From Cephalotus follicularis (taxonomy: Eukaryota > Streptophyta > Magnoliopsida > Oxalidales > Cephalotaceae), in contig BDDD01000038.1 of assembly GCA_001972305.1 (NCBI GenBank), forward strand, positions 1,146,756-1,210,755: DNA of 64,000 nucleotides, read 5' to 3'. Of this stretch, positions 1,232-64,000 are shown in pieces. The notes beneath the pieces are model-generated. The model saw only the letters and a list, made by a program, of their open reading frames with translations, did no database searches and was not told the origin of the DNA. Position 1 is the first letter of the stretch. Every line of letters begins with the position of its first letter. The position numbers were made by a program, and so were the translations under genes.

Positions 1232-2240
1232 TGAAAGTTAAGTATGGCAACCTTAAACAACAAACTAAATTGTTTGCGGAAATAACAAATTAAGCTATGA
1301 ACATAAACAATCACACAATAACAAATAAATAAGGAGTTAAGGGATAGAGAGTGCAAACAAAAATTATTGTGGTTCGGCAAAACCGTGCCTACGTCCACTT
1401 TTTCAAGAATACCTTGAGATTCCACAAGCCACCACTAGCAACCTTTGATTTTCGACTTACGGGTGCAAATCAAAGCAAACCACCTTTACACTTGATTTAA
1501 CTTCCGGGTGTAAATCAATAAACACCTTACAAGGGTTCACTCCCCTCAATTACAAATAATGATAGAAATGAATTGTGTAGTGTTTACAATAACCTCTCAA
1601 TAGGTTGGATATGAAAATGCTAGCTTAGTGTAAGCTTTGGATGTTGATATGAAAGATATAGGATTGCTCTAGCTTTGCTTGGAAGGAATGTATAATCACT
1701 TGTTATCTCTTGTAGTTTGTATATTGTAAAAATGCCATATTCTCATTTGTAATTATAGCCGTTGGGAGGAGGCAGTCGGCTGGAGCCCTGTGGCAGTCGG
1801 CTGTATGTCTGGGCAGTCGGCTGTTGCTCTGTTCCAGTCGGCTGTTTGGGCCTGAAATTCGATTTCCAAAGCTACTGGTTGAAATGTGCATCTCATGGCA
1901 GTCGGCTAGAATGTCACGGCAGTCGACTGGATTGTCATGGAAGTCGACTGGAGACCTGTGGCAGTCGGCTGGTTGGAGTGCACCTGCAGATTCTGGGTTT
2001 GTTTGAAGGTCCAGTCGGCTGGTCAAATGTTGGCAGTCGACTGAAGCTCTGTGACAGTCGGCTGGTTTTCCTGTTTCTGCAATTTAGAACCTTTGCAACA
2101 CTTTCAACAATGCAACCAAGTGAGTATATGAATTTGTATGAAATCAAATCATGCATATAAGAGTTTCTTGATTGTTACTTGTTTGTTAATCATCGAAACA
2201 TAATCTCTAACATAATTAAAGGGGTGGCAAAAAGCCAACA
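1232..2240 (-). repeat. Copia-1 5' LTR, 1009 bp
   Basis: The LTR runs from TGTTGGC at 2240 to CTTTCA at 1232 on the minus strand. The half nearest the PBS (about 1232-1560) has the same block order as the Copia-2 LTR: a stretch around CCGTGCCTACGTCCAC, then one around GGGTGTAAATCAA. The U3 half carries a 21-bp-spaced array of CAGTCGGCTG sites (1773-2064), where the sister LTR has a different motif. The block AGCCGTTGG just inside the array is shared with Copia-2. Confidence 0.88.
1773..2064. repeat. Palindrome array, flavour A (CAGTCGGCTG/CAGTCGACTG), in the Copia-1 LTR
   Basis: Sites start at 1773, 1794, 1814, 1835, 1899, 1920, 1941, 1962, 2012, 2034 and 2055. Gaps are 21, 20, 21, 64, 21, 21, 21, 50, 22 and 21 bp. 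The 64-bp gap equals three periods. The 10-bp core is conserved and the 11-bp spacer is variable, often CTGTGG-like just before the next core. Cores alternate between palindromic GTCGAC and GTCGGC. Confidence 0.93.
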
Positions 2241-3983
2241 CTGCATCAGAACACATCCCAAACCCTTCTTAGAAGCATCGCTGTATATCTGGTATCCACC
2301 CGACCCAGATGGTAAACGAAGAATTGGTGCTGACACAAGACCATTCTTCAATTTCTCGAAGCTTGCTTCTCGCTCCTCATTCCAATCAAATTTTGCTCCC
2401 TTCCTCATAAGCTGAGTTAGTGGTAAGGCTATAGAGGAAAAGCCTTCCACAAACCGCCTATAATATCCAGCCAAACCCAAGAAGCTCCTTACCTCCATCA
2501 CTGTGGTAGGTCTCGGCCATCTCGTAATAGCCTCAACTTTAGCAGGATCCACACAGATACCTTCAGCTGTAACCACATGACCCAAAAACGCCACCTGTTC
2601 CAACCAGAACTCACACTTCGAGAACTTCGCGTAAAGCTGATTCTTCCTCAGAATACCCAGCACAATGCGAAGCTGTTCTTCATGCACTTCCTTCGACTTG
2701 GAATACACAAGAATGTCATCTATAAACACAATAACGAACTGATCCAAGTACTCATGAAAAACCCTGTTCATCAAGTCCATGAAAACTGCTGGTGCATTAG
2801 TGAGTCCAAAAGGCATCACCAAAAACTTATAATGCCCATACCGAGTACGGAAAGCAGTTTTAGGCACATCTTCATCCTTTATCCGAAGCTGATGATATCC
2901 AAATCTCAAATCGATCTTCGAGAAATACTGAGCACCTTGGAGTTGATAAAACAAGTCATCAATCCTAGGTGGCGGGTATTTATTCCGAACAGTTATTCGG
3001 TTCAACTCTCTGTAGTCTATACATAACATCATAGACCCATCTTTCTTCTTCACAAAAAGAACCGGAGCACCCCATGGAGAAACACTAGGCCGAATGAAAC
3101 CCCGATCCAACAGCTCTTGCAACTGTTCCTTTAACTCTTGCAGTTCCAACGGTGTCATTCTGTAAGGTGCTTTAGATATAGGTGCCGCTGCGGGAATGAG
3201 TTCGATGGTAAACTCTACTTCCCGTTGCGGGGGTAAACCCGGTAACTCCTCCGGAAACACATCAGAAAATTCTCGTACCACAGGATAGTCTTCAAGGAGA
3301 GGCTCAACCTTTGAGACATCCTTCACAATAGCTAAGAAACCTTCAACGCCCTTAGCCACCAATTTCTGAGCTTTCAGAGCAGATATCACTTTCACTTCTT
3401 TCCTCGGCTGTGAACCCTGATAAACAAACTCAGGACTATTCACATCCCCAAACAGAACTCTCCGAGCATAGCAGTCGATCGTAGCCCGATGTCGGTTCAA
3501 CCAGTTCATTCCAAGAATCATATCAAAGTCGTACATATCGATAGGCAAAAGTTCAGCATCACGAATCCGATCATCGAAAACAAGAGGACAAGCATAAAAG
3601 CACACAGATATCACAACAGAAGAACCCGTAGGGGTCGAAAGGACCAAAGCTGGATCAAGCAACTGAGAAGACATCCCAAGATGTCGAACAAAAGACCTCG
3701 CTACAACCGAGTGGGTCGATCCAGTATCATACAAAACATAAGCCCTACGGTTACCAACAAAAATAAAGCCCGAAACTGTACCTGGTGCGTTAGCTGCCTG
3801 CTGAGTCGTGATAGCAAAGACACGACCTCCCACGTTGCACTGTCCATGATCTACATTATTCCCCTTCCTTTCCTTCGAACGAGGGTCAGGAGAATCCTTC
3901 ACGAAGTGCCCTTTCTGTCCACACACAAAACAGGCCCATATAGCCTTGTAGCACACTCCTACCGGATGTTCTCTACCACACAT
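2241..3983 (-). pseudogene. Gypsy-1 pol: zinc knuckle, protease, reverse transcriptase, truncated RNase H
   Basis: The polyprotein segment converts the element RNA to cDNA. In order it holds a gag zinc knuckle ([14 protein letters not shown], last Cys replaced by Ser), an aspartic protease with active site DTG ([10 protein letters not shown]), a complete RT with KKKDGS, the catalytic FIDDILVYS and the thumb motif [15 protein letters not shown], and the start of RNase H ([15 protein letters not shown]). The open frame physically extends to 2190, but residues after CVLMQ are read from the Copia-1 LTR, so I end the gene at 2241. It is in frame with gag upstream across a TGA at 4101-4103. RT and protease look intact, so decay here is recent or limited. 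Loss of RNase H and integrase makes it non-autonomous. Confidence 0.9.
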
Positions 3984-5105: not shown

Positions 5106-7632
5106 TGTAACACCCCCGGATGGCGGGAGTCGTCATAGGGTCATATCATACATAACATAACTTAACAAATCATAAGTTTGCTTTCTTAGTCAAAAACAGC
5201 CAAAACGTGGCAATCTTATCAAAACAAAAATACTTAACCATTTAACATATTAAGTAGTTGCGGAAAATTCAAAACATAAATCAGCTCCAATTTAAAACAT
5301 AAAACATAAAAATCCATGTTTCTGACCACTAAACATAACATAAGGATCACTCTCCTAAGGATCCAACATACAGGGTGGTCATCACTCAATCACACTTTCC
5401 CCCGCTGCTCCTGAAAACCTGCCGCATGGAAATAAAAATGCGGCTGAGCAAACCTCAGTACGGATAAGGGAAATAAAACAGTAAACGGTAATTTAAAAAC
5501 ATTAATATTTCAATAATAACTTAACAGAAATCTTTAACAGATAAAACAGTTTAATCATATTCAAATGACAATTGCATATTTTTCGAAACAATTACGGAAC
5601 GTTATAAATCATAGTTCATAAAACATACTGAGCCATATTCATATCACATATCATAAATTTTGGCAAGGGAGGTGCTAATTCCACATGCCCACTAGAATTG
5701 AAGTGTACGGCACTACACAAGTCAATTCTAACATGTCCGATCACACCTCAGACCACATATCTGAATTCACCTCAGATCACATAAACTAGAATCGATTCAT
5801 ACGCCTCTATCATACATAGCGGATCCACAAATCCACCTCATGGGATTTGTAGACACACTCAGAGACGCCGTAGTCTAATCACACCGCTACGGAAGTGTCA
5901 CGTCCCCGTGCCAAGCCCACGACGTGCCTATGGTTACGCCCCATAGGTGGGTACAATACTCAGTATTTATTTCAAAATAATTGATTTATCATATAAATAT
6001 GTTTTCACACAACATATTCGAAAACCGCTCACAGCGGTATCATAACATATCATATCATAACATATCATATGGATAAAGTCAGAATCAATTAAAATGTCAA
6101 ACCAACTTTAAATTTGAAACGTATTAAAATCATGAAACATCGTTGATTCCATAAACGAAGATGCTTAGCAAAACAGTTTCAGTTCGAATGTCAGATAGCC
6201 AAGGAACAGAAAATCCGTACCTTATGTGCTTACACAGTACTTACGAATAGGCGATCAAAAACAATTTCTCCTTTGAAGTATACAATCTAAAAGTCATACA
6301 AAATCATACGTGTAAGAGTCTAAAACACACCAGAAGTATTAAACAGACTCTTAACAGTGTTTGGAAAAGACTTGGATTGATTCGGGGATTAGACGAATTA
6401 AAACAGTTGAAAACAGTACATTCCAGGGCAAAACAATCGACTAAAACAGGGCTCCAGTCGACTAGGGAGACTTGGCAGTCGACTATTCATATGGTCCAGT
6501 CGACTACACAACCCAGAATACAGGCAGTCGACTGTGTTCATCCCTCCAGTCGACTATACAACCAAGGCAGTCGACTGCATTCATGTGGCAGTCGGCTACC
6601 CAACCATTCCAGCCGACTGTCCACAGAGACAGCCGACTGTTCTGGGCGACAGAACAGTTGGAAATTCGACGATATGCTACTGAAAATGGTTCAAATGGTT
6701 TCTACGTTAAACTAGAGACATATGGACATAAACATATGATCATATATGACTTGTAGGTGACATAGAAACACAGAAACGGCATATAAATAATTGGACAGTG
6801 ACTTAACTTACAAAAAGGAAACAAGAAGACAATGGATGTACATGTCCAGATTCTGTCTCTAATTGATTACAGATGTTATAAAACAAGTTTGTGACATATC
6901 TAGGTGCATAAAACGTGTTGACAATATCAGTGACACAGTGACAACATGTTTAGGCAGGAATCAATGACCCAAAGACACCAAGAGCACAAAAACTCAAAGT
7001 ATGCCATTAGAACAAGATTATCATTAGAGAGGACGAATCTACTAACCTGTAATGATTCCCAGAACACAAGAACAGTAGAAGAAACACTAGCACACACTCA
7101 CAATTCAGCTGTGAACAAAAATAGAGGAAGAAGAATACAAAACCATAACATACTTAGACATACATAGCAAACTAAGAGAGTTCAATCCAAAGAAAACAAC
7201 TAAAGGATTGAATTTACCTCTTCTGACTTTGAAGAACGAATTACACAGCAGATTGTTACACACAACAAGGCAGAATCGGCAGTGGCTTGCAAGAAGGATG
7301 AGGGCAACATATAAAATGGCAAAGGTAAGGTACTCTAAGAAAGGAGAAAGGAGGAGACACAATTTGACCAAAAGGGGAAGAAAGGAGGATTTTATGGAAT
7401 TTGAAATGGGAAAAAGAGAGGTTTAGCATGTGATATTGATGGTGGGAAGAAGGATTTACGGGAAAGGAGAAGGAAAGTAGGAAGAAAGTAGGAGAAAATG
7501 ATAAAATAGGAAAAAGGAAAAAAATATAGATGTTTCAATATATGCACAATCATGCCAAGTGGCCATAAACAATCCATATGCAAGAATACTGCACAAGGGT
7601 ACAATCAATTCATCCATCAATTGGGTGTCACA
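5106..7632 (-). repeat. Gypsy-1 5' LTR, about 2.5 kb
   Basis: The inner end (GGGGGTGTTACA on the minus strand) is at 5106. The outer end is placed at 7632 where the minus strand reads TGTGACACCC, followed about 90 bp later by a pyrimidine-rich tract (about 7340-7540), as in related LTRs. It contains the conserved CCTATGG...CCATAGG hairpin block (5927-5947), the nearby conserved CACACCGCTACGGAAGTG block (about 5880), and a flavour A array (6434-6640). The outer end is uncertain because sequence beyond it is also LTR-associated repeat. Confidence 0.7.
6434..6640. repeat. Palindrome array, flavour A, in the Gypsy-1 LTR
   Basis: Ten CAGTCGACTG-like sites start at 6434, 6455, 6476, 6497, 6525, 6547, 6568, 6589, 6610 and 6630. 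Gaps are 21, 21, 21, 28, 22, 21, 21, 21 and 20 bp. The last two sites are CAGCCGACTG, the reverse-complement form of CAGTCGGCTG. Confidence 0.93.
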
Positions 7633-9080
7633 CGCCGCTATCTCCTAGCTCTGACTGTGCACTACCTAACTATCTCCTGCGCTCTGAGGATGATAGAACA
7701 TGTAACATTTACTACCGGCGTTGGCGGGTAGTTTAACAAATAAGATCTGCAATGCATATTAGTTTAGGAGATATCCTGGCCAACTCCTGGCACCCAGGAT
7801 GCCTACCGTAGTCGGTGACCACAGCCATCACTCGACCACCGGCAACAAGCATAATCAATACAAGCATTCAATAATAATATTACATATATCAGCAATATGC
7901 AATATAAAAGTGGTTTTCTTTAGGAACATGTAACAAGTCATTTATCGTACATCTCTTCGGAGGAAAACGATATCAATTCAATAGTGGTTCTCGATTGGAG
8001 AACAAAACAGTAATAGTGCCTCTATCGAGAGGAAAATAACAGTTTGTATGATAATAAGATTTTCTATTAGAAAACCGTTTACAAATCATTGTTTATGCTT
8101 TAAGCATTAGGTCGGTAAAATTCATGAATATGTATGCATATCAGTAGAAATTTTACCCAATAACAGTAATAATGGTTACAATATAACATATCAGGGATAC
8201 TTGCAACCACAAACAATTCAATTGATCAATAACAAATTTCTACACCTACTGGTCTAAAGCGTCGACAGTTACTATATAAGCGTCGATGGTTAGTGACTAG
8301 GCGTCGACATTACACAGTTTGAGCGTCGCATTCTAAGCATTACTATGCCATTTTCGTATCAAAGCGTCGACGGTCAAGAGTAAGAGTCGACGCTTATGGG
8401 TTTCATACGAATTCCAGGAGTAGTTTCAAAACAGGGGATGTACAATTTCAATCCAAACTCAAACCAATTCAACATGCAATCAAGTACAGTCCATCATAAC
8501 ATATTATACATGTTATATGTTCAAAAACATGTCAAAATCCCCTACCTCAATAGCTAATCCCAAGATCAATTGGAATGATCTTTCACTTTATGCCAAAAGT
8601 TCCTCACTTCCTTTAATCTTCCAAAGTTTCCAGAATTAATCTACATGAGTGCATGTTTACAGGTCTTAGATACGAATCTAGTATGTTAGGCTAATTATAT
8701 AACCATGACAACATCCTGGAAATTGAATCATAAGCTTAAAACTAACTTCTAGGCTAAACTTCTAACCTTAGCTAATACATTATCTCATCTTTTCTTTCAT
8801 GTTTAATCCTCCATAAACATGTCAACAGTGGCATTGATGCTAACATTAAGGTATTACATTACTAGTGACCTTAACAACAACAAGAACATTCGGATTACTT
8901 ACCAATTCCAGGTAGTGTTCCAAGGTTTCCCTCTTTACTTCAAGCTCCTTCCTCCTCTAGCAATCCTCCAATAATCATCCAGGTTGTCTCACAATCTCTC
9001 AGTGTTTCTAACACTAAATCATTTCAAGGATCAACTGATATAAGGACTCATCAGTGTCTCCTTCAATTCGCCAGATTCTC
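7633..9080 (-). repeat. LTR-associated repeat, left arm of a large inverted repeat
   Basis: No coding sequence is seen. About 7543-8110 is an inverted, diverged copy of about 11880-12420; shared blocks include CATGCCAAGTGGCCATA, TGCAATGCATATT, CCAACTCCTGGCACC and CACCTAACTATC-like stretches. The arm therefore crosses the supposed LTR boundary at 7632. A flavour B palindrome array follows at 8260-8396. The rest (about 8400-9080) is AT-rich with nothing recognisable. It is probably the 3' untranslated region or LTR of another gypsy copy. Confidence 0.6.
8260..8396. repeat. Palindrome array, flavour B (AAGCGTCGACGCTT type)
   Basis: Core starts (the C of CGTCGA or its equivalent) are at 8260, 8281, 8302, 8324, 8365 and 8385. 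Gaps are 21, 21, 22, 41 and 20 bp. The best palindromes are at 8362-8372 and 8384-8395. Confidence 0.88.
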
Positions 9081-11209
9081 TGTAATGACCCCGACCCGAG
9101 CTCGCTAATATCTCAAAGAGAACATCCGAGGATCGGTTCCGTTACGTTGGTTGCGAAACGTTACATCCTTTGGTACTATTCTCTAAAAGTACACTACATT
9201 ATAACTCACATTTCGTAACATAATACCTAACCTTAAATTCAAACTTTATACAAAATCTTCTTATATGAAGATGTCATAATCATATCGTTAATCTACATTA
9301 CACAGGATCATTCTTTTACATTACAGCGGAAAAACTTTATTCCTATTACATAATAAAACATTAATGCAACATCATTTCATAGTCTTTCATTCTCAAAAAC
9401 TCCTTCTTAAGAGCTTCCTCTAAGCTCCCAATCTCCATTCATTCATTTCCTGAAAACATTTTATTTGAAAACAACATTGAAAGGAATGAGCCCAAAATAG
9501 CCCAGTAAGGTGTTTTTATAGTAAACACATTTCATCATGACTTTTTCTAGTCCATACATATAATTAGAAACATTTCATGAAACATATCACTTTTCTAGTT
9601 AATATCGTAACTAGATCATTTCGTAAACAAAAAAGTCATAAAAAACCTTAATGAACCCTTTACACCGCTTCACCGGGGCATTGTGCACTCCCCGATTACT
9701 ATCCTTACATCGCATGCATGTCCGTGAGCACGCTCGGATCCATTAACTTTGAGCATCTCGCTCCATTCCCCTTGGATCACAATCCAAGGGCAGTTCATTC
9801 ATCATTTACTTTGAGTGATCAGTTCAAAGAAATCATAAAAATCATTTCATAACGTCTCTTTCACAATCCATAAACTTTTCTCTTCATTTGAGTAATTTAA
9901 CTCAAAACCTTTGTAAAACAGTTTTGCATCACTTCACTAAAACTGATAATTCATATAGAAATAAGCCTTTTCAGTAAAAACTTAAAACATAAACATTAAA
10001 GTACACATCCTTAAGATTTCAGAAAGCTCAAGATCATAACAATTGGTTGAGAATTGAATCCTCTATGAATTTTTGAAAGTGGCTGGTCCGATGAGAAAAC
10101 AGGACATGAGCAGTAAAATGAATCATTGATTTTCATCAAGAATTTGACATAATTTCGGGATACATAAAACATAACAGTTAAAGAGGACATATTAAGGTTT
10201 TCAAAACATCTAGACATTAAATTTTTCATCAAAAAACGAGTAAGATATGTTTTAAAGAAGCTGCTGCATAATCTAGGAATAAAACAGTTCCTGAACAGAA
10301 ATTTAAAACATGGATTTCCATCAAGAAAGCGATAGAATCTTGAAACATGAAAAGCATAACATTTAAAGAAGACATCTTAAAGTTTCTAGAACATCCAACC
10401 ATTCAAAAATCCATTGAGAATTGAACAAGTTATAACTAGAACAATATGCTGCATAATTGAAACCAAAACAGGGGATGCTTTGTAGAGAATGGCTAAAGAA
10501 TTTCCTTACTTTTGCTTTAGAATTCCTTTCTCTTTTGCTCTCCACGAATTCTTCACTTCACTATCAGCAGGAAAAATTTCTTTCTCAACAGAAATTACTG
10601 AGTTTCAACACTCTTAGCCATTAAATAGAAGGATAGCTTGTGAGGTAAGTTTTCCCCCCTCTCACACACTCAATTATCTAACTTGGCAGCACATGTGACA
10701 AATTTCAACCAATCCAGGTGTTTACACCTGTTAGATTATCAGGTAACACCTCCTAGAATCCTTCCCTGGCCTGCCATGTGTCCAAAATTAAAGATTTTTA
10801 CCCACAAAATGCCAAAAAGTCAGATTTTACATTTTGTCTGTAGCTCAAAGCGTCAACGTTTTCCTTCTAAGCGTCGGCGGTCAGAGCCTTTTCCTGAGTT
10901 TTTCACCTCTATCCCGACTAAAACGCTGATGCTTTATCACAAAGCGTCGCCGCTTTAAGTCAACTGACACACATAACTTCAACGAATCGACGTTTAAAAT
11001 TAGGACATCGACTGTTACCCAAAGCGTCGACGCTTTCAACAAAACCGTCGGCACTTTAGACAGTTTTTATGATTGCTCACCGGGGAGCGGAACCCCCGTA
11101 CTCCCCGAGCGTTGGGTCATACTACGGGTCCCTTAAACTATTTGCCAATTCACACAATAGAAATCGTTTTCCATAATTAATATCTTACATAGAAACTCGG
11201 GTCATTACA
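9081..11209 (-). mobile_element. Solo LTR, 2129 bp, with target duplication TTCTC
   Basis: Termini are TGTAATGACC at 9081 and GGTCATTACA at 11209, flanked by TTCTC on both sides (9076-9080 and 11210-11214). No internal region or second LTR is present, so this is a solo LTR left by LTR-LTR recombination. Minus orientation is inferred from similarity to the LTR at 47218-48283: both share the blocks GGGGAGTGCACAATGCCCCG and GAGCTCGCTTTGAG-like sequence before CTCGGGTCGGGG. A flavour B array lies at 10851-11057, which the 47-kb relative lacks. Confidence 0.88.
10851..11057. repeat. Palindrome array, flavour B, inside the solo LTR
   Basis: Core starts are at 10851, 10872, 10924, 10945, 10985, 11006, 11025 and 11046. 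Gaps are 21, 52, 21, 40, 21, 19 and 21 bp. The clearest member is AAAGCGTCGACGCTTT at 11021-11036. Confidence 0.92.
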
Positions 11210-12310
11210 TTCTCCCTCCTTCAATGCACATTTCTCTCTCTCACATGCATGCACCCTCTTTTGTTCTTTCTCTAAGCTTAGCAGATTGTGCAGGTTGAAG
11301 GGAGGCATGCAAGGCCTTAGTCTGGGGTTAACAACAGCTGTCGAGGTCCCCCTTGCATGGCCAACACGTCTAAGGACGCGTACCTTGGTTCCCATCATGA
11401 CCATCTCAGCCATTTCACTCTAACTGACACCTATTTTTAGCCAGAACACGACTAAAGCGTCATCGGTTACCTCGTGGGCGTCGGCGCTTAGACGCCATTA
11501 AGTGTTGATACGGAGCGTTTAAAAGTCGACGGTTGGCGCCCAACCTCAGTCTTCAACTGTGCATTTTGACACATGCCAGGTCTTAAAGCGTCGACGGTGT
11601 CATTCCAGGTGTCGGCGGTTTAACATCAAAAATCAATTCTTTAAATTTCCATTTAAGAATTCTATTTCAAGTATTTACCAATCATAAGAATTATTATAAT
11701 TGGACATTAAATTCAAATGAGTGCACATTTTATTAATCAATATTACAATGTACACGAATTGAATTTGCGGTTATTACAAATGATGTTGTTATACATACTG
11801 TATAGATATTAAGTGTTCATAAATACTATTGTTACACTTAATATTACTGATTGAACCAACTAGTGCTATAAGCACAGATATGGGTTTTCTTTATTGTTTT
11901 CAAAATAAAAACTTATTGTTAAAAGATTTACTGATTCTCCTCCACTGAGAGGCAAAACTACTGTGTGGAATACTGTTTCCCCCAAAAGAGAGGTACGGTA
12001 ACTGAATTGTTAAATGTTTCAAAAAAAAACTATTACTATGTTGCATATTATAGATATATGTAATATTACTACGGAATTCAATGAATTGTTTGTCTATGCT
12101 TATTGTCGTGAGTCGAGTGATAGGGGACATCACTGGCTACGGGGTGGTCCTAGGTGCCAGGAGTTGGCTAGAGTTTTCACACACTTATCTGCAATGCATA
12201 TTTTATTTGTTACCTGCCCGCTAAATGCTGGCAGAATTGACCTGATCTATCATCTTCAGAGTGTAGGGTGATAGTTAGGTGGTGTGCAGTCTGTGCTATG
12301 AGTTAGCGAG
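11210..12310 (+). repeat. Continuation of the repeat split by the solo LTR; right arm of the inverted repeat
   Basis: This joins 7633-9080 once the solo LTR and one target duplication are removed. Short ORFs here have no recognisable domain. A flavour B array occupies 11458-11621 (cores at 11458, 11479, 11524, 11589 and 11610, with two 21-bp gaps). The right part, about 11880-12310 plus the first about 110 bp of the next LTR, is the inverted counterpart of 7543-8110. Confidence 0.6.
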
Positions 12311-16881: not shown

Positions 16882-19800
16882 TGTAATATCTCGTCTGTCT
16901 GTGTGTAAATATTCTACCTGCTAATCTATTTTGCCTAATTTATTTTTGTTTATGTGGTTTGGGCTGACTGATACCAGCCTTGGCCTTTTGGGTATATGTT
17001 TTTATGTGCATATGAATAAGTAGAATTATTTTATTTTTATATTATTACAAATCAGTTTTTAATTAAACTTTTGGAATGAAAATCTTTTATTTTATTCTTC
17101 TCTCTCCCATATCTCTATCTCTCCCGTATGTTTCTCACTCTTTCTCTCTTTCTCACCCGATTCTCTCCCTCTTTTCCTTATCCTACCGATTTTGTTCCCT
17201 CTTCTTCCTTGTCTCAGCTAAAATTATCTCCCTTTTCTGTTTAAGTAAGCCTCAACCACTGCTATGTCTCTATCTTCGTCTCTTTCTCTTGGAAAGCACC
17301 GTGTCTTGACGGCCTTGGATTCCTTGAGTTTGGTTTGCTGTGTTGTCTCTACAATCAGGTTTGCTCTTCATGGTTTGGTCTATGGATTGTTTTGCTTTAA
17401 TATGCATAAAATTGGCAGGATTTGAATCCGCGTGTTTTCCTTCTCTTTTTCCTTTTGAACAGATGTTCTAAATCTTGAAAATCGTTGTGTTTCTTCTACA
17501 GTTTTTGTGTTGCCATTGGAGGTTGGTTTTCTTGTTTTGCTGTGATGGTTCATCTTGTTTTGTTATGAATCCGATTTCATGATTATACAGGCTGTTAGGA
17601 TACCGTTTTTTATTCTTGCCACACCCCGTCTTGTTTTGTTTGTGAGTCTATTAGTAGTTTTTTAGTGTCCTGTATATGCTGTAATCTGGATATGATAATT
17701 TGATGAATTATGCATTGATAATTGTCAAATGGTACATATGCAGAATTTAGCATTTTCTTGAAGTTTAGCCACTGTCTATATATGTCACTCTGATGTTCAG
17801 TGTTCTTTTATTGTTTTAAATACCATATAGAGTCTTATTTAAATGGTTATGGTTCTCTTGTAATGTGATATCCAGGTTTTGATAGAAAAATTGCATAGGA
17901 TTGTCAGATTTTTGTTTTTTATCGCCCACGGCAGTCACCTGCCATATTGAACAGTCGACTGGACCCCTGTCACGGTCGACTGGCTGTAGTTCTGCTTGTG
18001 TAGTTGGCTAGCCATGTTGGGTAGTCGACTACCAGGCTTTGAACAGTCGACTGGAGTCCTGTTCTAGTTCGCTGGTAAGTCCGGGAAAATTCTGCTTTCA
18101 AATTTCCATATCCGTTTGTTCTTATGATGAATCGGGGTCTGTTTTAAACACCGTTATATTTCTGATTTAATGTCCACAGTTAATTCCAAGTCCTTATATG
18201 AACGATTTTGTATCTTATAGATAATAATGCTACCAAGGTGCTGTTTAGAGATTCATAAAGTTATTTTTATGAACGCATAAGGTACGAATTCTTCGCCTTT
18301 GGTTATCATCCTCTGTTTTGGATTTTGACAAATTCAGTTTTTACTGTTTAATGAGTACGTACGGATAACTCCCTTATTGATAAATTCCTCTGATTTAATT
18401 GGAAATGAAATGATTTTAGTACGGATAACTCTCTTCTTGGACATCTGATTTTATTGAAATAAAGTCAGTTTTGGTTTTTAATGGATATTGTACGGATAGT
18501 TCTTTCCTTGATATCTCTTTGGGTTTTTAATGAGATAATTTCAGTGTTTGCCTTTATGATTTAGAGTATTGATTCTTCGTTCTTTGATACACTCTTGTGG
18601 TTTTATGCTTTTGTGAACTAAGTATGGATCTTTCCTTTTCGAATACCATTATTCGGTTTTATCTGAATTGAAGTAGTTTTGTTTTAATGAAATGTACGGA
18701 TTTTCGTTCTTCGATATCCCTTTGGTTTAATGAATTCTGTTATGCTTCGGGTTTTCGGTATGTTTTGAAAATAAAGTCAGTTTTGATATTAAAATCCAAG
18801 GAGTATAATCAAGAACAAGAAATCCATACTTTATTCATAAAAGTAAAACTATCATTTTACTCTAATAAAATCAATAGTAGAGTATCAAGGAATGAAACAT
18901 CCGTACCTCATGCAATCACAAAAATAACCTCAAGAATATATATCGATAATTCTCTCCTTGGATATCTGATTTATTTGAAATAAATCCAGTTTTTGTTTTT
19001 AATGGATATGTACGAATAGTTCCTTCTTTGTTTTATTCCTTCGGTTTTATGAACTCTGTTATGTTTTGGATTTTCAATATGTTTTGGAAATAAAGTCAAC
19101 TTTGATATTTTTTTTATGAAAACTGAATATTTCTGACGTTATATAGTCAGCTATGAATTGTTTACAAAATGTTATGCAGTCATCTCTTTTATTGAGAAAT
19201 TAATTTAGTTGATTTCCGATTATGAAAGTATGTGAAATATGAAATTATATCGTTGATAACGATTTATGGATATGTTTTGGAAATCCTTTATGTGTTTTGA
19301 ATTGATTATGATAAAATCAATGTTTTGAAATGGTGAAGTATAGAGCTTTTGTACCCACCTATGGGGCATACCATAGGCATGTCCTTTGGTACGGAGGCAT
19401 GACACTTTCCGTGGCGGTGTGATTAGTCTACGGTGTCTCTCTATGTTTATGATATCCTTGTGGAGGATTTGTGATAGAGGCGTATGGATCGATCCTAGAA
19501 ATATGTGATATGTTATGTTATGAGAATTGATTGTGTAGCGTCGTACACGTCATTTCTATTTGGCATGTGGACGTCGCGAATCCCTTGCTTATATGTGTTA
19601 TGTTATGTGATATGTTATGAAGCTCAGTAGGGAACTTTATGTTTTGAAATGTATGCTTTATGTTTTAAAAGATATGCTTTATGTTTTTGAAAGTTGTGGA
19701 TTTGGTTTGATACGAAAATTTCTGAGGTAATTTATAAAGAATGTTTAAACTATTTTGTTTCGTTTTCTTCAGTAAAAACTATTTTGTTACGTTCCGAAAA

Positions 19801-20274: not shown

Positions 20275-20968
20275 GTAATGGATAATTCTCTTGCCTCATA
20301 GCTGAATTTATAAAGCCAAAAAAATTCACTTCCATAAAAATATCAAAGCTGACTTTATTTGGAAACGTATCAAAAATCCGAATCAAAACAAAATTCATAA
20401 AACCAAAGAACCAACAAAGCTGAATTTATTTCAATAAAATCAGATGCCCAAGATGAGAATTATCCCTACCTTAAGCGATCACAGAAATAACTTACGAATT
20501 GACCGATAAATTTCTAAACAGCCCCTCGGTAGTACAATATATCTATAAGATACAAAATCATTCATATAAGAACCTGAAATTAACGGTGGACATAAATCAG
20601 AAACATAACAGTGTTTAACACAGACCCTGATTCAACAGAAGGACAAACGGATAAGGAAATTTGAAAGCAGAAATTTCCTGGACTCACCAGCCGATTGATA
20701 CAAGACTCCAGTCGTCTGTTCAAGGTATTGTAGTGAACTGCACAACATAGCCAGCCGACTACACAAGCAGAACTGCAGCCAATCGACTGTGACAAGGGTC
20801 TAGTCGACTATGCAAGACATAACAGCCAACTAATTCAAAAGGCAGCCGACTACCCAATGCCTAACAGCCGACTGTTCAATAAGTCAGCCGGCTGTTTTGG
20901 GAGACAGAAAACAAAAATCTAACAGTCCCATGCAATTTTTCTTTTAAAAACCTGGAAACCTCAATGTG
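20275..20968 (-). repeat. Inverted LTR fragment with flavour A array
   Basis: On the minus strand this matches part of the Gypsy-3 LTR (about 37790-38260), in the same order and up to the first GTACGGATAA-like block. The array has sites at 20688, 20709, 20752, 20780, 20801, 20823, 20843, 20865 and 20885 (gaps 21, 43, 28, 21, 22, 20, 22, 20). It abuts the Gypsy-2 3' LTR end on one side and Gypsy-3 integrase sequence on the other, with no target duplication that I could see. Confidence 0.72.
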
Positions 20969-25636: not shown

Positions 25637-28018
25637 TGTAACACCCCGGGCCCGCAAGGCGGACACGTGGCATTACCCTCAATCCAATACACAATACAAT
25701 GGTCGGGACTAGCAATATAAAAATGCAGAAAACTTTAAAACTTTACAAGCCTTTTCAAATACATAACAATCCTTTAAAAAGCATTACAATACAGTATATA
25801 TCCATCTTTCATTACAATTTCTCAAAGCAATACATTCCAAAATTTACTACAATGTCTCACAACCAGCTCCGCGGTACCCAAGCAGTCATGCGATCAACGG
25901 TCTTCAATCCTTCTGTCCACTGCTACCAGCTACCCTACCTATGCCGCACACAAAGGTACAACACAGCCCCACCCCGAAGAATGGGGTTAGCCACACTGGC
26001 TAAGCAGAAACCCCATGTAGCATGTATGCATTTACAATGTGCAATATCGGTGACAATTTATATAATATCAATGTGCGGTGTACAATATCAATGCATGACA
26101 TGACAAATGTACATGTACAATTGGCGATCAGACTACCCGTATGACAATGGCCCATAACAGAGCATACGGATAGGATCTATAACAATCAATCAATCAATAG
26201 CTGACATTCAATGGTGGTGTATGAAACACCCAATCAACCAATCAATAACCAATAGAGCATGCGACCGGTGTCAATACAGTGTCAATCAGTTAGCAGTGAT
26301 CAATCCTATAGAAGGTAGTCCTTCGAAAAGGGTGAGAGATCTATCTACGATTCTCAGACTGATCAGGTCTCGAACGCATAGATCTTCCAGCCTATGGCTG
26401 GGCCAATAGAATCTCAATGAGCTATAGCTGAGGGAGCTACTGATGCCATTAGGGAGCTATAGCCCTCAGCGAGCACAATCGTCAATCAATCGTGCTCGTC
26501 AGGATGACAATACAGTAAAAGAAACGGTCGACGAAATAGGTGGACATAGTCAACCTAACAAGCCGACATAAACCACAAGGTCGCTCTATAGGATCCATAC
26601 GATACAATCAATCATTCAATCGAGTCAATACAACATTAAGAAAAGTCAATGATTGGTGGTGCCAAATGGAGAAATGGGAACGTGCGTCCATCTTACCGAC
26701 TTAGACTCACAACAACACTTACGACTCAAGCAATCGATCGATGTATCAATACAACGTCGATGCAAGGTCGATAAATGGTGGTGCCTAATGGAGGGATGGA
26801 GACGTGCGTCCATTTTACCGACTTAGACTCACTACAACACTCACGACTCAAGCAATAAATCAATTAATCCAATCATTTAAAACCGTTTTCAAACACTTGA
26901 ACACCTCAAGTGAGGCTCTAGTTAAGTGGCAATGTGAAAAGAAGTTGAAAACAAACTTTAAAACAGTTAAAAACTCCTTTCAGTACATTAGGCGTCGATG
27001 TCCTTGGTGAAAGACATCGACTCCTTTTTAAAATGATGGAAAGACGTCGATGTCTTTAAAAGACATCGATGTCTTTCCCTATTTGTGTGGAGACCTGGCC
27101 GAAGACGTCGATGTCCTTTAAGAAAGGCGTCGACCCGTTTAAATAAAAATAGCCTGAGAATGCACATCGATGTTCGGCATCGACGTCTTTCCAGGGGAGA
27201 GACATCTCGAGGCAAAGACGTCGACGTCTTTGAAAGGCGTTGATGTCTTTGCTGCAGAATCAAGGATGTAGCACTCGTATGAGAAAGACATCGACGTCTT
27301 TGTGCTAAGGTCGATGTCTTTTCCGGGAAAAGTCGATTTTGTGCAGAAAATAGGGCCAATCTCGGGTCAAAAACAAATTTAAAGCCATTATTTGAAAACC
27401 AAAGTTTACAATCAATCATTTGAGGTTAGTAAGACTAGTTACAACCTTCCAAATTTGATTTCAATCATTCAATTTAACAATTAGGTCAAGGGTTTGCTAT
27501 AAACCCTAAAAACTTCAATTCAATCACTCAATCACTCAATTCAATCATGCAATTCAATCAATAAAACAGTAGGCAACTCAGTAAAGAAGTCCTACCTTTC
27601 ACTAAAGCTTCAAAAGTTGAGCTAACGATCGATCAATCGGCTGAAAATGCCCAATAATCCGCTACTTTCTTGTTCAATCGGTAAGCCACCACTTGTAATC
27701 ACTGTCCTTGTCGATGGAGATGCAATTCCGGCTGCAAGGGAGGAAGATGGAGGCTCCAACTAGAGAGAGAGGGAGAATAATAGAGAGATAAGAGGAAATG
27801 AGAATAATGAGAGAAAAGAGAGAAAGAATTTACATAAATAGTCGATTAGATCAACTCTCCGAAACTCGGCCCAAAATCCCGACTATACATGCATATAACC
27901 AATACAATATCAATAGGTGTAAGAATACCTCAATTCAATACAGTTCAGTACGGTCTAGTACGATACAATAAGGTACGATGTATGCATGAACAGTACAAAA
28001 GGGAATTCGGTCGTCACA
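25637..28018 (-). repeat. Gypsy-4 3' LTR, 2382 bp
   Basis: On the minus strand it runs from TGTGACGACCG at 28018 to GGGGTGTTACA at 25637. It is unusually rich in CAAT/CAATC words on the plus strand (for example about 26185-26300). It contains a flavour C palindrome array (26993-27335) and a duplicated segment around ACTTACGACTCAAGCAATC (about 26660-26880). Confidence 0.92.
26993..27335. repeat. Palindrome array, flavour C (AAGACGTCGATGTCTT), Gypsy-4 3' LTR
   Basis: Core starts are at 26993, 27015, 27045, 27064, 27106, 27128, 27165, 27178, 27203, 27219 and 27238, with more near 27290 and 27311. Several gaps are 19-22 or 42 bp, but the spacing is less regular than in flavours A and B. Examples are AAAGACGTCGACGTCTTT (about 27215) and AAAGACATCGATGTCTTT (about 27060). 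Confidence 0.9.
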
Positions 28019-28032
28019 TTCTCCCCTCCTTG
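28019..28032 (-). other. Gypsy-4 polypurine tract
   Basis: The minus strand reads AAGGAGGGGAGAA directly before the 3' LTR start TGTGACG. This is the usual site of plus-strand priming. Confidence 0.85.
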
Positions 28033-28074
28033 AAAGAATCTGGTCCCCAGATTCATCGGTCAAACAAACAATTA

Positions 28075-35060: not shown

Positions 35061-35229
35061 TACTATAAGAGACAACAATGGGATGATCAGATGCAATCAC
35101 TTTCAATTCAAATAACAATATCTTTTCCAATAACAATAGCATGAATAAGCAAGAACACATATCATGCAAATCCATTCAGTCAATCTCAATCAACGCATTT
35201 ATCTACTTAGCTAGCAGGCTTACCAATGT

Positions 35230-35240
35230 CTCTGATACCA
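35230..35240 (-). other. Gypsy-4 primer-binding site
   Basis: The minus strand reads TGGTATCAGAG three bases after the 5' LTR end. Confidence 0.87.
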
Positions 35241-35243
35241 TAC

Positions 35244-37616: not shown

Positions 37617-39431
37617 GGTAATTTGACAGTAAATTGGATTATATATGTATGCAATGGATTAGAAGTCACTCCTTCTCTTTTTAAAGTATAACCACTGTCC
37701 ACATACTCCATTTTAATTTTGTGTTCTTTTTACTGTTACACATTGCATAGATGTTTGTTTAAATGGTTATGGTCCTCTGGTATTGAGGTATCCAGGTTTT
37801 TGAAAGAAAAATTTCATAGGATTGTTACATTTTTGTTTTCTATCGCCCAGAACAATCGGCTCTTAGGCATTCAGTAGCCGGCTGCCTTATGAATCAGTCG
37901 GCTGTTATGTCTTGCACAGTCGACTGGACCCCTCTCAAAGTTGGCTGGCTACAGTTATGCTTGTGTAGTCGGCTGGCTATGTTATGCAGTCGACTGGAGT
38001 CCTGTATCAGCCGACTGGTGAGTCCAGGAAATTTTTGCTTTCAAATCTCCTTATCCGTTTGTCCTTCTGTTGAATCAGGGTCTGTGTTAAATACTGTTAT
38101 ATTTCTGATTTATGTCCTTAGTTAATTTCAAGTCCTTATATGAATGATTTTGTATCTTATAGATATATTGTACAACCGAGGGGCTGTTTAGAAATTTATC
38201 GGTCAATTCGTAAGTTATTTCTGTGATCGCTTAAGGTATGGATAATTCTATTCTTGGACATCTAATTTTATTGAAATAAATTCAGCTTTGTTTGTTCTTT
38301 GGTTTTATGAATTTTGTTATGATTCGGATTTTCGATATGTTTCCAAATAAAGTCAGCTTTGATATTTTTATGAGAGTGAATATTTTCTGACTTTATAAAT
38401 TTAGCTGTGATATGTTTACGAAATGTTATGCAATCGTGTCTTTTATTGTGAAAATAAATGAGTTAATTTTCGATTATGAAAGTATGTGCATTATGAATTT
38501 ATATCGTTTGATAACGATTTATGGATATTTTTCGGAAAACTTCTATGTATTTTAAATTGATTATGATAAAATCAATGTTTTGGAATGGTGAAGTACTGAG
38601 CTTTTGTACCCACCTATGGGGCGTACCATAGGCATGTCCTTTGGCACGGAGGCATGACACTTTCTACGGCAGTGTGATTAGTCTACGATGTCTCTCTATG
38701 TTTATGATACCCTATGTGGAGGATTTGTGATAGAGACGTATGAATCGATCCTAGAAATATGTGATATGTTATGTTATGAGAATTGATTGTGTGGTGTCGT
38801 ACATGTCATTTCTATTTGGCATGTGGACGTCATGAACCCCTTGCTTATATGTGTTTCTATATGTGATATGTTCTGATGCTTAGTATGGAACTTTATGTTT
38901 TGAAAGGTATGCTTTATGTTTTGAAAGTTATGGATTTGGTTTATACGAAAATTTCTGAGGTAATTTAGAAAAGAATGTCTAAACTGATTATTGCTTAAGA
39001 TTTCTGTTTTGAGTTAACTTTGAAATCTTATAGCCATTTGAAAGTTATCGTTTATTGTTTTCACATTCTATATCCGACTGAGGTTTGCTCAGCCACATTT
39101 TTGTTTCTGTGCGGCAGGTTATCAGGAGCAACGGGCCAATGTGTGATGAGAGGTGTCTACCCTATGTCTGAGGATCATCTAGGAGTTTGATCATATTATG
39201 CTTATGTTGTCATATGGTCATGCTAGGGCCTGTTTTATGAACAATTTTATGGTTTCGGATTATGATATTTGGTTTATGTTAAGTTTTCAGACTATGTTTT
39301 GATTCAGATATGTTATCAAGTTATGTTTTAGGCCATCTTGTTTTAATAAAGTTGAGCTTTATATTCTGTTCTGTTTTGTTAAGTTCTGTATTATGACCGG
39401 TAAGGGCTCTCACCTTTCGGGGGTGATATAG
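37617..39431 (+). repeat. Gypsy-3 3' LTR, second part
   Basis: It resumes with GGTAATTTGACAG after Gypsy-4 and carries a flavour A array (37853-38017), GTACGGAT-like segments, the hairpin block (38613-38632) and TGAGGTTTGCTCAGCC at about 39080. A mutated terminus GGGGGTGATATA lies near 39431. The total LTR without Gypsy-4 is about 2.7 kb. Confidence 0.75.
37853..38017. repeat. Palindrome array, flavour A, Gypsy-3 3' LTR
   Basis: Site starts are at 37853, 37875, 37895, 37917, 37938, 37966, 37987 and 38008. Gaps are 22, 20, 22, 21, 28, 21 and 21 bp. Confidence 0.9.
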
Positions 39432-42449: not shown

Positions 42450-42972
42450 TTTTAAATCTTGTTTCTTGGCCTCTATATATAGCTTCATTTAGTTTCTAGC
42501 CGTTGGTGAAGAAATAGAGCCGTTGGAGAAGTCTTGGAAGTTGTGGCATAAAGATTGGTTCTTCAAAACATGTTCTGATATTGTATCAGCCGACCAAAGG
42601 GTCGACGACATTGCTTTAAGCGTCGGCGCTTAGGTTACCGTTAGGAGTTAAATTTGAATTTTCTCGTTTGGACGCTGGCGCTTTAAACTGGGAGTCGACT
42701 CTTCGCCATAAAGCGCTGACGCTTTAATCCTAAGTGTTGCCGCTTTGAGTGCTTCAGCTAATTTTGTGCTCCACTGGTTTTAACGGCAGATATACGCTTC
42801 TTGGGCGTCGACTTTTTGTCTTAAAGCCCTGACGCTTTGATTGTGACCGTCGGCGCTTTGCTCTGTTTCTGCACTTCTTTGTTTTGCTTATTTGTTTTCT
42901 TGCACAGAAAGCAGCAAAGTTAAATGCTAATTTGCAATCATTAAAACTTAGGATTGAGACTAAAAGTCAACA
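42450..42972 (-). repeat. Copia-2 3' LTR, truncated to 523 bp
   Basis: It matches 58165-58687 at exactly the same length with few substitutions. It contains the TATA-like block (CTCTATATATAG on plus) and a flavour B array (about 42600-42859). The missing 517 bp are the R/U5 half. Confidence 0.9.
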
Positions 42973-44657: not shown

Positions 44658-44659
44658 GT

Positions 44660-57646: not shown

Positions 57647-58188
57647 CTTGTTGGAAATGTATGGAAACCTTAAACAAATAATTTGTATGCGGAAATAACA
57701 AATTAAGCTATGAAAATAAACAATCATACGATAACAAATAAATTAAAGAGATAAGGGATAGAGAGTGTGCAAACGAATTTATAGTGGTTCAGAAAATCCG
57801 TGCCTACATCCACTTTCTCAAGAACCCCTTAAGTTTCCACTAGAATCCACTAGCAACCTTTGATTTTCGGCTTACGGGTGCAAATCAAAGAAACCACCTT
57901 ACACTTGATTTTGGGTTCCGGGTGCAAATCAATAAAACACCTTACAAGGGTTCACTCCCCTCTTTTACAATGTATGATAGAAAAGGATTTGTGTCGTGTT
58001 TACAATAACCTCTTAAAGGTTGGATATGAAAGTGATAGGATGTTACAAGCTTTGGAGATGTTACAAGCTTTGGATGTGAAAGTGTAAAACTCTAGCTTGA
58101 TGTCTTTCTCTTTTTATGCAAGTTGAGATATTGAGATTGGATGTTCAAATGTTGTTCCTTGGTCTTTTAAATCTTGTTTCTTGGCCTC

Positions 58189-58196
58189 TATATATA
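58189..58196 (-). promoter_or_regulatory. Copia-2 LTR TATA box
   Basis: TATATATA sits in a CTATATATAGAGGCC context on the minus strand. It is kept in the truncated 3' LTR (about 42474). The palindrome array lies about 120-385 bp upstream in transcription direction, the usual place for an LTR enhancer. Confidence 0.7.
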
Positions 58197-58314
58197 GCTT
58201 CATTTAGTTTCTAGCCGTTGGTGAAGAAATAGAGCCGTTGGAGAAGTCTTGGAAGTTGTGGCATAAAGATTGGTTCTTTAAAACATGTTCTGATATTGTA
58301 TCAGCCGACAAAAA

Positions 58315-58573
58315 CGTCGACGGTATTGCTTTAAGCGTCGGCGCTTAGGTTACCGTTAGGAGTTAAATTTGAATTTTCTCATTTGGACGCTGGCGCTTTA
58401 AACTGGGAGTTGACTCTTCGCCATAAAGCGCTGACGCTTTAATCCTAAGCGTCGCCGCTTTGAGTGCTTCAGCTAATTTTGTGCTCCACTGGTTTTAACA
58501 ACAGATATGCGCTTCTTGGGCGTCGACTTTTTGTCTTAAAGCGCTGATGCTTTGATTGTGACCGTCAGCGCTT
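58315..58573. repeat. Palindrome array, flavour B, Copia-2 LTR U3
   Basis: Core starts are at 58315, 58336, 58388, 58429, 58450, 58521, 58542 and 58563. Gaps are 21, 52, 41, 21, 71, 21 and 21 bp. Examples are AAGCGTCGGCGCTT (58333) and TAAGCGTCGCCGCTTT (58446). The same array is at 42600-42859. Confidence 0.92.
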
Positions 58574-58687
58574 TGCTCTGTTTTTGCACTTCTTTGTTTT
58601 GCTTATTTCTTTTCTTGAACAGAAAGCAGCAAAGTTAAATGCAAATTTGTAATCATTAAAACTTAGGATTGAGACTAAAAGTCAACA

Positions 58688-62024: not shown

Positions 62025-64000
62025 TGTAACGCCCCAAATTTCATAAATAATTATTATGAAATTGGTGCGTGTACGATCATAATAAAATCGATAGAGCCCG
62101 GAGTAATAAAAGGCATTACGCATTTAAGTCGTAATCGTGTTAGCTAAGACGGCTAATAAAATCTATTTTTAATGCGCAACAATAATGCCCAAATGTTTGC
62201 ATTTTTATTGTGATTATTTCGGTGGTCGTTTGGATAATTTATGTCACGATTCGCGGAAAATCGGGACCCAGACCTTAGTATTTTACCAGAAAATAATAAG
62301 GAGGGAGCAAAATAATAAAGGAAGAAGGGGGAGACACGGGCGCATAGCGCGCCCGTGCGAGTAACCTGCAGATGGGAGAGAGAGAGAGAGAGACTGGGAG
62401 AGATAGTGAGAGAGAGAGGGGGAGAAGGCGCCGGAGACGACGCCGGAGCCAGCCACGTGACCGAGAGAGGACGGCGGACCACCCAGGCATGCCTACCGCT
62501 GGTAAGCTCTTCCCCTTCCCCTCTTTTCTCTTCTTTTTCCTTTCTTCCCCGCCACTGTTCGCTCAAGCTGCCGGCGTTTCCTGACACTGTTAGCGTCGCG
62601 GGTGGGGTGGGTTTTTGTGTAGAAGGCGCAGTCTTGCCATTTCGACCACCGGTGAAGCATGATTCGGCCGGAAATGGCCAGAATCAGTTGACTGAGTCGA
62701 GTCAACGAGTTGACTCACGGCCGCATAAGACCGCGCGTTTGGCGCCGAGTCTTGGCGAGTCACAGGCATGGGTGTGTATAACTGGTGAATGTGTGGCATT
62801 TTTGGGTGGTGATCGGACCTGTGGAGGTACGGCGAGTTGACTCAGTTAGTCACGACTCGCTGCCGGCCGTGGCGCGGCGTTCGGCATCGATTCCCGGCGA
62901 GTCTTGACCGGTTTTGAGTAGACCGTTCAATATGGAACCCGTTGATAGGTGATTCACCGCCTGGTTGTATCGGACGGAATCCGGCCGGCGTTTCGGCAAC
63001 GGAAATGTTTTGTGTGTCGAATGTAAAGGAAATGTGTTGTATGTGCAGTGTGCGAGTGGCAATTGGTTTTGGCATTGAGGAATCGATCAATTGGCGAGAA
63101 CCGGCTTCGATTCAACGGTTTCTGGATAAGGTTCGGCAATTGAACCTGCGGCTCGACTGTGCTGCTGCTGCTGCGATTCCTAGCTTTGAATCGGAGGTAG
63201 GGGAAGCTATACATGCAAGTTTGAGTTCAATAATATTTTAATGCCATTGATGAAATGCATGGTTTGCAGATTGTGAATTGTGTGATTGTGTTAGGGTTAC
63301 TATGAGTAGTTAACCTGTTATGCATATTGTGCCGTAGAATGCTTGTGGACTGTGGATTGTGAATTGTGTGACTGTGTTAGGGTTGCTATGAATAGTTAAC
63401 CTGTCATGCATATTGTGTTTTACAATGATTGTAGATAGGATTGCATGTGTTGTGTGCTTGAACTCTATTGGTTTTGAGGCGTGTTGAGGGAACCGTGTTT
63501 TCATTCGCTTAACCGTCGACACTTAGGAAACAGGCGTCAACGCTATGGATTGTCATACGGAAAATGAGTCCTGATTCACGAGAAACGTCGACGCTTAGAG
63601 AAAACGTCGACGCCACGATTCGTTGTATGTGAGAATGGACACGTGTGCCGTTGATGCCTGACGTTCCTACCTCAGAGCATCGACGCCAATGGGATGAGAC
63701 GTTGACGCGTAAAGTTCTGGTTGGAAGCGTTGACACTAAGAGTTAAGCGGTGACGCTTAAGTGACTGGGTTGAACATTAACGCCAATATGGTACTTGTTG
63801 ACGCGAATAGAGCTCGTTTGCATTTTGAGCATATGTTTGCATTGCATACTGTTATGGATTGAAATGTATATAATTGCTAAAGTGTTTGTCATTTTAGACA
63901 ATGAGAGTATGGTTTAGTTATAACCAATATTTCGTACGAAATGTAATATTTCAAATATTGAAATGAGATTTCAAAGGATTGATACATATTTTGAGTAAAT
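62025..64000 (+). repeat. Gypsy-6 3' LTR, at least 1976 bp, runs off the window
   Basis: It starts TGTAACGCCCC right after the PPT. The first about 360 bp match 42092-42449. It contains a GA microsatellite (about 62374-62425), a GC-richer segment (62400-63200) whose ORFs show no domain, two near-identical segments around GTGAATTGTGTGA(T/C)TGTGTTAGG (63270 and 63357), and a flavour B array (63514-63760). Confidence 0.8.
63514..63760. repeat. Palindrome array, flavour B variant, Gypsy-6 3' LTR
   Basis: Core starts are at 63514, 63535, 63586, 63605, 63678, 63700, 63728 and 63748. Gaps are 21, 51, 19, 73, 22, 28 and 20 bp. Cores such as AACGTCGACGCTTAG and AAGCGTTGACACTAAG are more diverged than in the Copia-2 LTR. 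Confidence 0.85.

Follow-up and report, generated by a model that had tools for sequence, protein, structure and literature searches.

Arrays of short palindromes built on a GTCGAC or TCGA centre occupy the long terminal repeats (LTRs) of both Ty1/copia and Ty3/gypsy retrotransposons in a 64,000-nucleotide stretch of the Cephalotus follicularis genome (contig BDDD01000038.1, positions 1,146,756 to 1,210,755; hereafter the window), the content of which is nested LTR retrotransposons. The palindromes are strongly enriched, neighbouring units follow each other mostly at steps of 20-22 bp and recurrently at 27-28 bp, their cores are conserved between diverged copies, and at one place within one LTR family different copies carry different palindromes. 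The flavours CAGTCGACTG (flavour A), GCGTCGACGC (flavour B) and GACGTCGACGTC have a common GTCGAC or TCGA centre and different arms. Judged from the sequence, the arrays are probably promoter or enhancer modules of the LTRs, with the palindromes as putative sites for a homodimeric, sequence-specific DNA-binding protein. LTR control regions otherwise evolve fast and their logic can rarely be read; here the letters that appear functional stand out legibly against poorly conserved spacers, in tens of thousands of repeats per genome, in both superfamilies and with a type that differs within one LTR family.

Enrichment and spacing of the palindromes

Unit scans detected an array at each of the 14 places listed in an initial annotation of the window. 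These places reduce to seven LTR types (two Sirevirus-like Ty1 elements and at least three Ty3 families); the annotated occurrence in many unrelated LTRs is to be corrected to this number, the count of families being inflated by homologous copies. GTCGAC, GTCGGC and GCCGAC cores were found 88 times in the window (mean 16.2, maximum 26 in 300 dinucleotide shuffles), and 34 core pairs were spaced 19-23 bp (mean 0.02, maximum 1). As an internal negative control, the LTRs of the gypsy element E2 contained zero cores.

Genome-wide counts were taken over the plant assembly of 1,577,397,061 bases (1.58 Gb). Exact CAGTCGACTG pairs numbered 38,225 at gaps of 8-14 bp, 10,999 at 15-30 bp and 48,265 at 31-60 bp, compared with 137, 29 and 137 for the reversed-pattern control. 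For GCGTCGACGC, 3,558 pairs were obtained against 4 in the control, and the centre-swapped palindrome CAGTGCACTG (centre GTGCAC) gave 0 pairs in the genome. As a sample, twenty 10-kb stretches were selected on position alone (the same position on contigs C1-C20; 3,706 of 200,000 bases masked); they contained 152 cores, with 52 pairs of cores spaced 20-22 bp, and 20 arrays with at least three cores, spread over 11 of the 20 stretches. When all 64 palindromic 6-mers were compared for pairs at 19-23 bp in this sample, GTCGAC came first (24), followed by TATATA (7) and ATATAT (6). The annotated observation is confirmed, and it reaches beyond the window into the genome. The CAGTCGACTG pair was also found in 14 stretches of a prokaryote collection and in 0 stretches of a viral collection. 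Three contigs of one Myxococcales metagenome assembly (L007, L010 and L012) each carried CAGTCGACTG pairs at a similar step, which may be an unrelated bacterial repeat.

When sample and window were combined, 79 of the 89 pairs of A units lying 15-36 bp apart were at 20-22 bp, in agreement with the annotated step of about 21 bp; the single steps were 20 (16 pairs), 21 (53), 22 (10), 25 (1) and 28 bp (9). The longer core distances of the sample form two combs, one at about 42, 63, 84 and 105 bp and one at about 49, 70, 91 and 112 bp, corresponding to multiples of 21 bp and to multiples of 21 bp plus one 28-bp step. The same long step recurred in the genome, where 50 plus-strand places among the matches listed for the 10,999 pairs with gaps of 15-30 bp comprised 36 at 27-28 bp, 9 at 39-40 bp and 5 at other distances. 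Twenty-one base pairs are two helical turns and 28 bp about 2.67 turns, and a strict common face of the helix therefore fails across the 28-bp step. The proposed same-face phasing, taken strictly, is only partly right, given the recurrent 27-28 bp step with its second comb. In the window, 19 long intervals fitted a period of 10.5 bp (Monte Carlo p 0.00035; best-fitting period 11.2) and not one of 21 bp (p 0.23). This fit was dropped as proof of a common face after the larger sample was analysed, because the odd distances of flavour A stem from the recurrent 28-bp step.

The 27-28 bp steps among the matches listed contained CGTG on one strand of the spacer in 28 of 36 cases (shuffles: mean 4.1, maximum 11), positioned at offset 7 in 20 of 23 distinct sequences. 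In the sample and window CGTG was present in 2 of 11 such steps. The CGTG box may be a second binding site within the array, or a trait of some families.

Core divergence and array flavour in homologous copies

Five flavour A arrays of the window are homologous copies from one Ty3/gypsy LTR family, X: Xa (6434..6639, minus strand, 10 units in the 5' LTR by unit scan), Xb (17932..18074, plus), Xc (20688..20894, minus), Xd (33085..33248, minus) and Xe (37853..38017, plus). In the five aligned copies the mean difference per site amounted to 0.17 for cores, against 0.35 for spacers and 0.33 for flanks. Cores were clearly less diverged than spacers in 7 of the 10 copy pairs, and the contrast was best seen in the most distant ones, such as Xd-Xa (core 6/80, spacer 47/85, flank 127/287). 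Between the two LTRs of one insertion the difference of core and spacer was absent or small, both in E1 (core 6/107, spacer 10/179, rest of the LTR 5/237) and in element C (core 3/119, spacer 8/194, rest 104/2041). Equal or nearly equal decay of core and spacer within insertions, together with conserved cores between diverged copies, fits purifying selection as long as lineages are active and neutral decay of copies once they are dead.

The register was further analysed with A units lying 40-44 bp apart, for which a match of the middle was not required. In the sample and window, 41 of 45 middles held a unit matching at 9/10 positions or better, whereas random positions in these sequences did so in about 0.2% of cases. 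The divergence of the X copies, the middle units and the genome-wide pair counts together support selection on core and spacing in copia and gypsy LTRs, as had been proposed.

A difference of flavour at one place was observed in a second LTR family, F. Its window copy carries flavour B (AAGCGTCGACGCTT) on the minus strand at array position 1 (11455..11620, with the LTR start TGTAATAACCGC at 11778) and at array position 2 (8257..8395), the two probably belonging to one interrupted LTR. The LTR start TGTAATAACC or a near-match was found at window position 11778, in both L030 copies, and in L033 and L041/L042; in L030 and L042 a purine tract precedes it. Flavour B is present in the window and in one L030 copy, flavour A in the other L030 copy, L033, L035, L039/L040 and L041/L042. 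At array position 2, two copies carry B and three carry A between homologous flanks. The window B copy and the three A copies are 77-84% identical in the left flank and 72-77% in the right flank, far above shuffles, with the 210-250 bp immediately left of the array falling outside the local alignments. In its left flank, the L033 A copy is equally close to the window B copy (427/506) and to the other A copies (468/564 and 472/565). Furthermore, the two arrays of a family F LTR, about 1 kb apart, share their flavour in 7 of 7 elements (2 B/B, 5 A/A). Given these totals, agreement by chance would be 1 in 21, an arithmetical value from which shared descent is not removed; in this set L039-L042 were picked among the flavour A matches, the L035 pair is linked solely by order and distance, and a later insertion splits the window pair. 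In L041/L042, array one lies about 175-250 bp from the LTR start and has the 28-bp step, and array two lies about 1.3 kb in and has steps of about 21 bp (cores at 1179-1249 and 2294-2417 in L041, and at 1183-1253 and 2277-2379 in L042).

The LTRs of the Sirevirus-like elements S2 (flavour A) and E1 (flavour B) are 88% identical downstream of the array (345/392), and nothing exceeded shuffles in or before the array zone. Spacers of S2 and family X resembled each other in the same orientation (p 0.001 for the maximum, 0.0005 for the mean), the reverse orientation being not significant. Comparisons with single X copies were variable (Xc maximum p 0.20; Xa in reverse orientation p 0.001 on the mean), and for the spacers of flavour B arrays the outcome was mixed whichever orientation was compared. 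The similarity of S2 and X spacers is suggestive only of a transfer of A arrays between them. That the short flank TGCCCAGAAAT moved into family F together with the A array is not claimed, as 1 of 15 comparisons was above all 200 shuffles (L030b-Xd, 11 vs 10; L035-Xa, with 9, equalled the maximum). Roughly at the family X array place, L036:6824-6890 contains a three-unit array with B-like arms, followed downstream by X-like sequence (7297-8282). A flavour B array at the X place is likewise not claimed, since the directly adjoining sequence does not exceed shuffles.

A wider reading, of rather low probability, is that unrelated LTR retrotransposons of one genome have in common a few palindromic address codes that can be exchanged, that an LTR family may switch its code as a whole, with all arrays of the LTR together, and that a trans-acting dimer of evolving specificity, host-encoded or an anti-silencing protein of the element, licenses transcription. 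If true, the genome would be a record of an arms race spanning Ty1 and Ty3, or of competition for a shared activator.

Probable promoter role, alternative explanations and known systems

The surroundings of the arrays were examined in S2, E1, G4, Xa, the LTR at 10851 and element C. A TATA-like box was found downstream of the array in S2 (15 bp), E1 (115 bp; a TATATATA box) and G4 (108 bp). Dyad-symmetric cores, a fixed step and the position upstream of TATA-like boxes in these three elements argue for a dimeric DNA-binding protein at the LTR promoter. Each palindrome of 10-18 bp would most likely be one putative homodimer site; with sites mostly two helical turns apart, adjacent dimers could bind side by side, and bound dimers might drive transcription of the LTR or keep it out of silencing. 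The flavours share the centre and differ in the arms, so they would probably be read as different specificities, and arrays may be lost from LTR families or exchanged between them as modules. According to spacer similarity, for which the statistics are weak, the S2 array is oriented relative to transcription opposite to the family X arrays, as enhancers may show. The 21-bp repeats of SV40 (simian virus 40) and of the LTR of HTLV-1 (human T-cell leukaemia virus 1) are also protein-binding promoter repeats with a two-turn step; they differ in having few copies and other motifs and in belonging to animal viruses, and serve as an analogy only. For the palindromic boxes of Sirevirus LTRs, CpG islands are part of the description; in the present arrays the observed/expected ratio of CpG was 1.49 in C, 1.46 in E1 and 1.67 in G4, but 0.61 in S2 and 0.72 in Xa.

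Several observations weigh against a function of the arrays as protein-bound promoter modules. Downstream of the Xa and 10851 arrays no TATA-like box was found; in element C more than 900 bp separate the array from the nearest one. Across a 27-28 bp step, sites depart from the register by about one third of a turn. In the three closest X pairs core conservation is lacking: differences were equal in Xb-Xc (core 16/70, spacer 18/76), and higher in the core in Xb-Xe (16/60 and 16/64) and Xc-Xe (14/80 and 9/88). In addition, core columns were set by a motif match in any copy, a mild bias toward conservation. Finally, the Xa and C arrays fold strongly as RNA (z -7.96 and -11.37 relative to shuffles), which makes an RNA role possible there.

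An epigenetic variant, in which the arrays nucleate loss of silencing and the flavours shift in an arms race of an element- or host-encoded protein with its targets, is unlikely, although it has a published parallel in the VANC proteins of VANDALs. VANDALs are DNA transposons, not LTR elements. Their VANC targets resemble the present arrays as dense short motifs in non-coding parts, with a sequence-specific reader and a target type that shifts between related copies (PMC5735166, in the part available), and the presence of different flavours at one place in family F would fit such a scheme. The VANC targets differ in that a YAGTATTAY motif is arrayed in the same orientation and read by an anti-silencing protein of the element, and neither 'LTR' nor 'palindrom' occurs in the main text of PMC5735166.

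The palindromes lie in the U3 (unique 3') region and are hence also part of the genomic RNA at its 3' end. That they work at the RNA level, by forming hairpins, by dimerising RNA or by giving rise to small RNAs, is quite improbable. The strong folding of Xa and C would agree with such a role, and in maize the Sirevirus palindromes are hotspots of small RNAs whose predicted structure is strong (available parts of PMC5311732 and PMC10760457). However, folding was weaker in S2 (z -1.72, with 12 of 200 shuffles folding equally well) and E1 (z -2.61, with 3 of 200), so that RNA self-pairing is not a common feature of the arrays. Moreover, the sense strand of S2 reads GCCGAC in 8 of 11 units, giving C-A mismatches in self-pairing RNA, and RNA pairing has no need of a fixed 21-bp step.

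That the arrays are neutral tandem repeats, with a 21-bp unit grown by slippage and core conservation as a search artefact, is very improbable. Pairwise identity of the S2 spacers was 0.38, compared with 0.27 after shuffling, a value reached by 0 of 1000 shuffles, and Tandem Repeats Finder reported short 21-bp arrays at 1771, 1893 and 33105; the closest three X pairs would also be compatible with neutral repeats. In the other five A arrays spacer identity was not significant against shuffles. For S2, the annotated lack of spacer conservation is an overstatement. Neutral growth is contradicted by the middle units (41/45), by the distant X copies with cores far less diverged than spacers, by the recurrence of one core in LTRs of Ty1 and Ty3 elements whose sequences are otherwise unrelated, and by the shared flavour of the two arrays of one LTR.

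DREB proteins bind DNA in monomeric form, under which palindromic arms would not be maintained; barley CBF2 reportedly binds GTCGAC. That the arrays are sites for AP2/ERF activators of the DREB/CBF type is the least credible alternative: the units contain GCCGAC or GTCGAC, i.e. (G/A)(C/T)CGAC, and in S2 GCCGAC, which matches exactly the C-repeat/dehydration-responsive element (CRT/DRE) core (RCCGAC) as given in the available part of PMC5209670, occurs in 8 of 11 units, but 34 of the 45 middle units of the sample and window have T at their position 4, flavour C centres are often ATCGAT, and Arabidopsis CBF3 was not recruited at GTCGAC sites according to the same part of that source.

The claim that no described element class has such a signature does not hold for the general kind, since palindromic high-copy LTR motifs of Sireviruses were described in 2010. 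In the available part of that work (Bousios et al. 2010, PMC2829016), the repeated motif (RM) consists of high-copy palindromic boxes upstream of the TATA box in 13 Sireviruses; it is termed Sirevirus-specific and absent from classic Ty1/copia elements, and its variants may bind different nuclear factors. The present arrays resemble it as palindromic U3 boxes before the TATA box that are conserved in otherwise diverged LTRs and vary between elements. The Vitis RM CGGTCGACCG holds a GTCGAC core and the Tnd-1 RM ACAATCGATTGT a TCGA centre, as here (PMC2829016, same part). Being palindromic, with at least eight copies in the upper LTR half upstream of the TATA box, as an RM is defined, applies to S2 (11 units) and E1 (8 and 9 units). 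The cores here are GTCGAC or GTCGGC with CA..TG or GC..GC arms and so lack the CGG-CCG core signature, which, in the same part, is also missing from Tnd-1; and arrays occur outside Sireviruses, in X, C and G4 with Ty3/gypsy proteins. In the available text of PMC2829016, neither boxes of this kind in Ty3 LTRs nor a 21-bp register nor a replacement of the box type within one LTR family is reported. Maize Sirevirus palindromes (CACCGGAC...GTCCGGTG), treated as cis-regulatory in the accessible parts of PMC5311732 and PMC10760457, are alike in forming clusters in the LTR cis-region that vary between copies and are also met in Helitrons, and differ in their core. Among the matches listed from open-licence literature, covered by listings and abstract openings, no earlier report of such arrays in Ty3 LTRs was found. 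The general kind is known; apparently new are the other core, the inclusion of Ty3, the explicit 21-bp register, one motif across superfamilies and the switching of flavour. The recruited protein, competition for one activator and target switching as an arms race with silencing are all testable, and core plus 21-bp step provide a simple sequence handle for LTR promoters in other plants.

Elements of the window

S2 is a Sirevirus-like Ty1/copia element on the minus strand with a 5' LTR at 1232..2240 (ends TGTTGG...TTTCA), a primer-binding site (PBS), TGGTATCAGAGC, at 1218 and gag at 657-1196 (PF14223). Its flavour A array (CAGYCGRCTG, 11 units) lies in the U3 region of the 5' LTR at 1773..2064, as located by unit scan, LTR and PBS. 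E1, also Sirevirus-like (TGTTGAC...CCAACA) and on the minus strand, has a 5' LTR at 57649..58687, a PBS at 57636 and gag at 56079-57599, which matches Cephalotus follicularis proteins with up to 90% identity. Its flavour B arrays are at 58312..58573 in the 5' LTR and at 42597..42858 in the 3' LTR (start 42972, cut at 42450). PF14223 was found in the gag of both elements, and no pol of E1 or S2 was identified within the window. According to the available part of PMC2829016, Sireviruses have the 5' LTR/PBS junction CA/ATTGG/TATCAGAGC, with G at the second position in six elements, and several AGGGGGAG polypurine octamers before the 3' LTR, of which the last is followed by AT/TG. E1 has five AGGGGGAG tracts at 42975-43612, the terminal one being AGGGGGAGATTG, in line with this definition; the 3' end of S2 lies beyond the window. 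Its junction CA/AGTGG/TATCAGAGA and that of S2, CA/GTTGG/TATCAGAGC, each show one difference from the junction in that part of the source. Two S2-type LTR fragments in L037 (1936-2594 and 3991-4649), 97% identical and only 2.05 kb apart, may represent either an unusually short element or a remnant left by nesting.

The Ty3/gypsy copy Xa, on the minus strand, has its LTR end at 5106, a PBS at 5090, gag at 4104-4679 and pol at 2190-4103. A separate LTR on the same strand, starting at 11209 (TGTAATGACCC) after a purine tract, carries a flavour B array at 10848..11056. Self-comparison placed arrays inside inverted repeats and prompted a reading of the X and F arrays as parts of terminal-inverted-repeat DNA transposons. 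This was rejected, as PBS, purine tracts, gag/pol and LTR pairs are better explained by oppositely oriented LTR copies.

Element C (Ty3/gypsy, 25637..37616, minus strand) is bounded by LTRs at 25637-28018 and about 35244-37616 with the target-site duplication (TSD) GGTAA, and its minus strand contains pieces of gag, protease, RNase H and integrase. Its flavour C arrays (AAAGACGTCGACGTCTTT) lie at 26988..27321 in the 3' LTR and at 36610..36925 in the 5' LTR. G4 (Ty3/gypsy, plus strand), into the 5' LTR of which E1 seems to have inserted, has a PBS at 58713, gag at 59231-59689 and a 3' LTR from 62025 after a purine tract, with a flavour B array at 63511..63758. Between its gag and 3' LTR, at 60173-60482, tandem repeats of 30, 51 and 17 bp are built on the inverted repeats CCGTTATTGAACGG and CCGTAAACGG and constitute a further palindrome array, located outside any LTR.

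E2 is a complete gypsy element nested in E1 (43685-55898, plus strand; LTRs 43685-44657 and 54940-55898; TSD CCTAC). It contains a direct tandem duplication of 202 bp at 52117-52513 with 98% matches, and, antisense between integrase and 3' LTR, an open frame on the minus strand at 53586-54431 with a match to PF04195.

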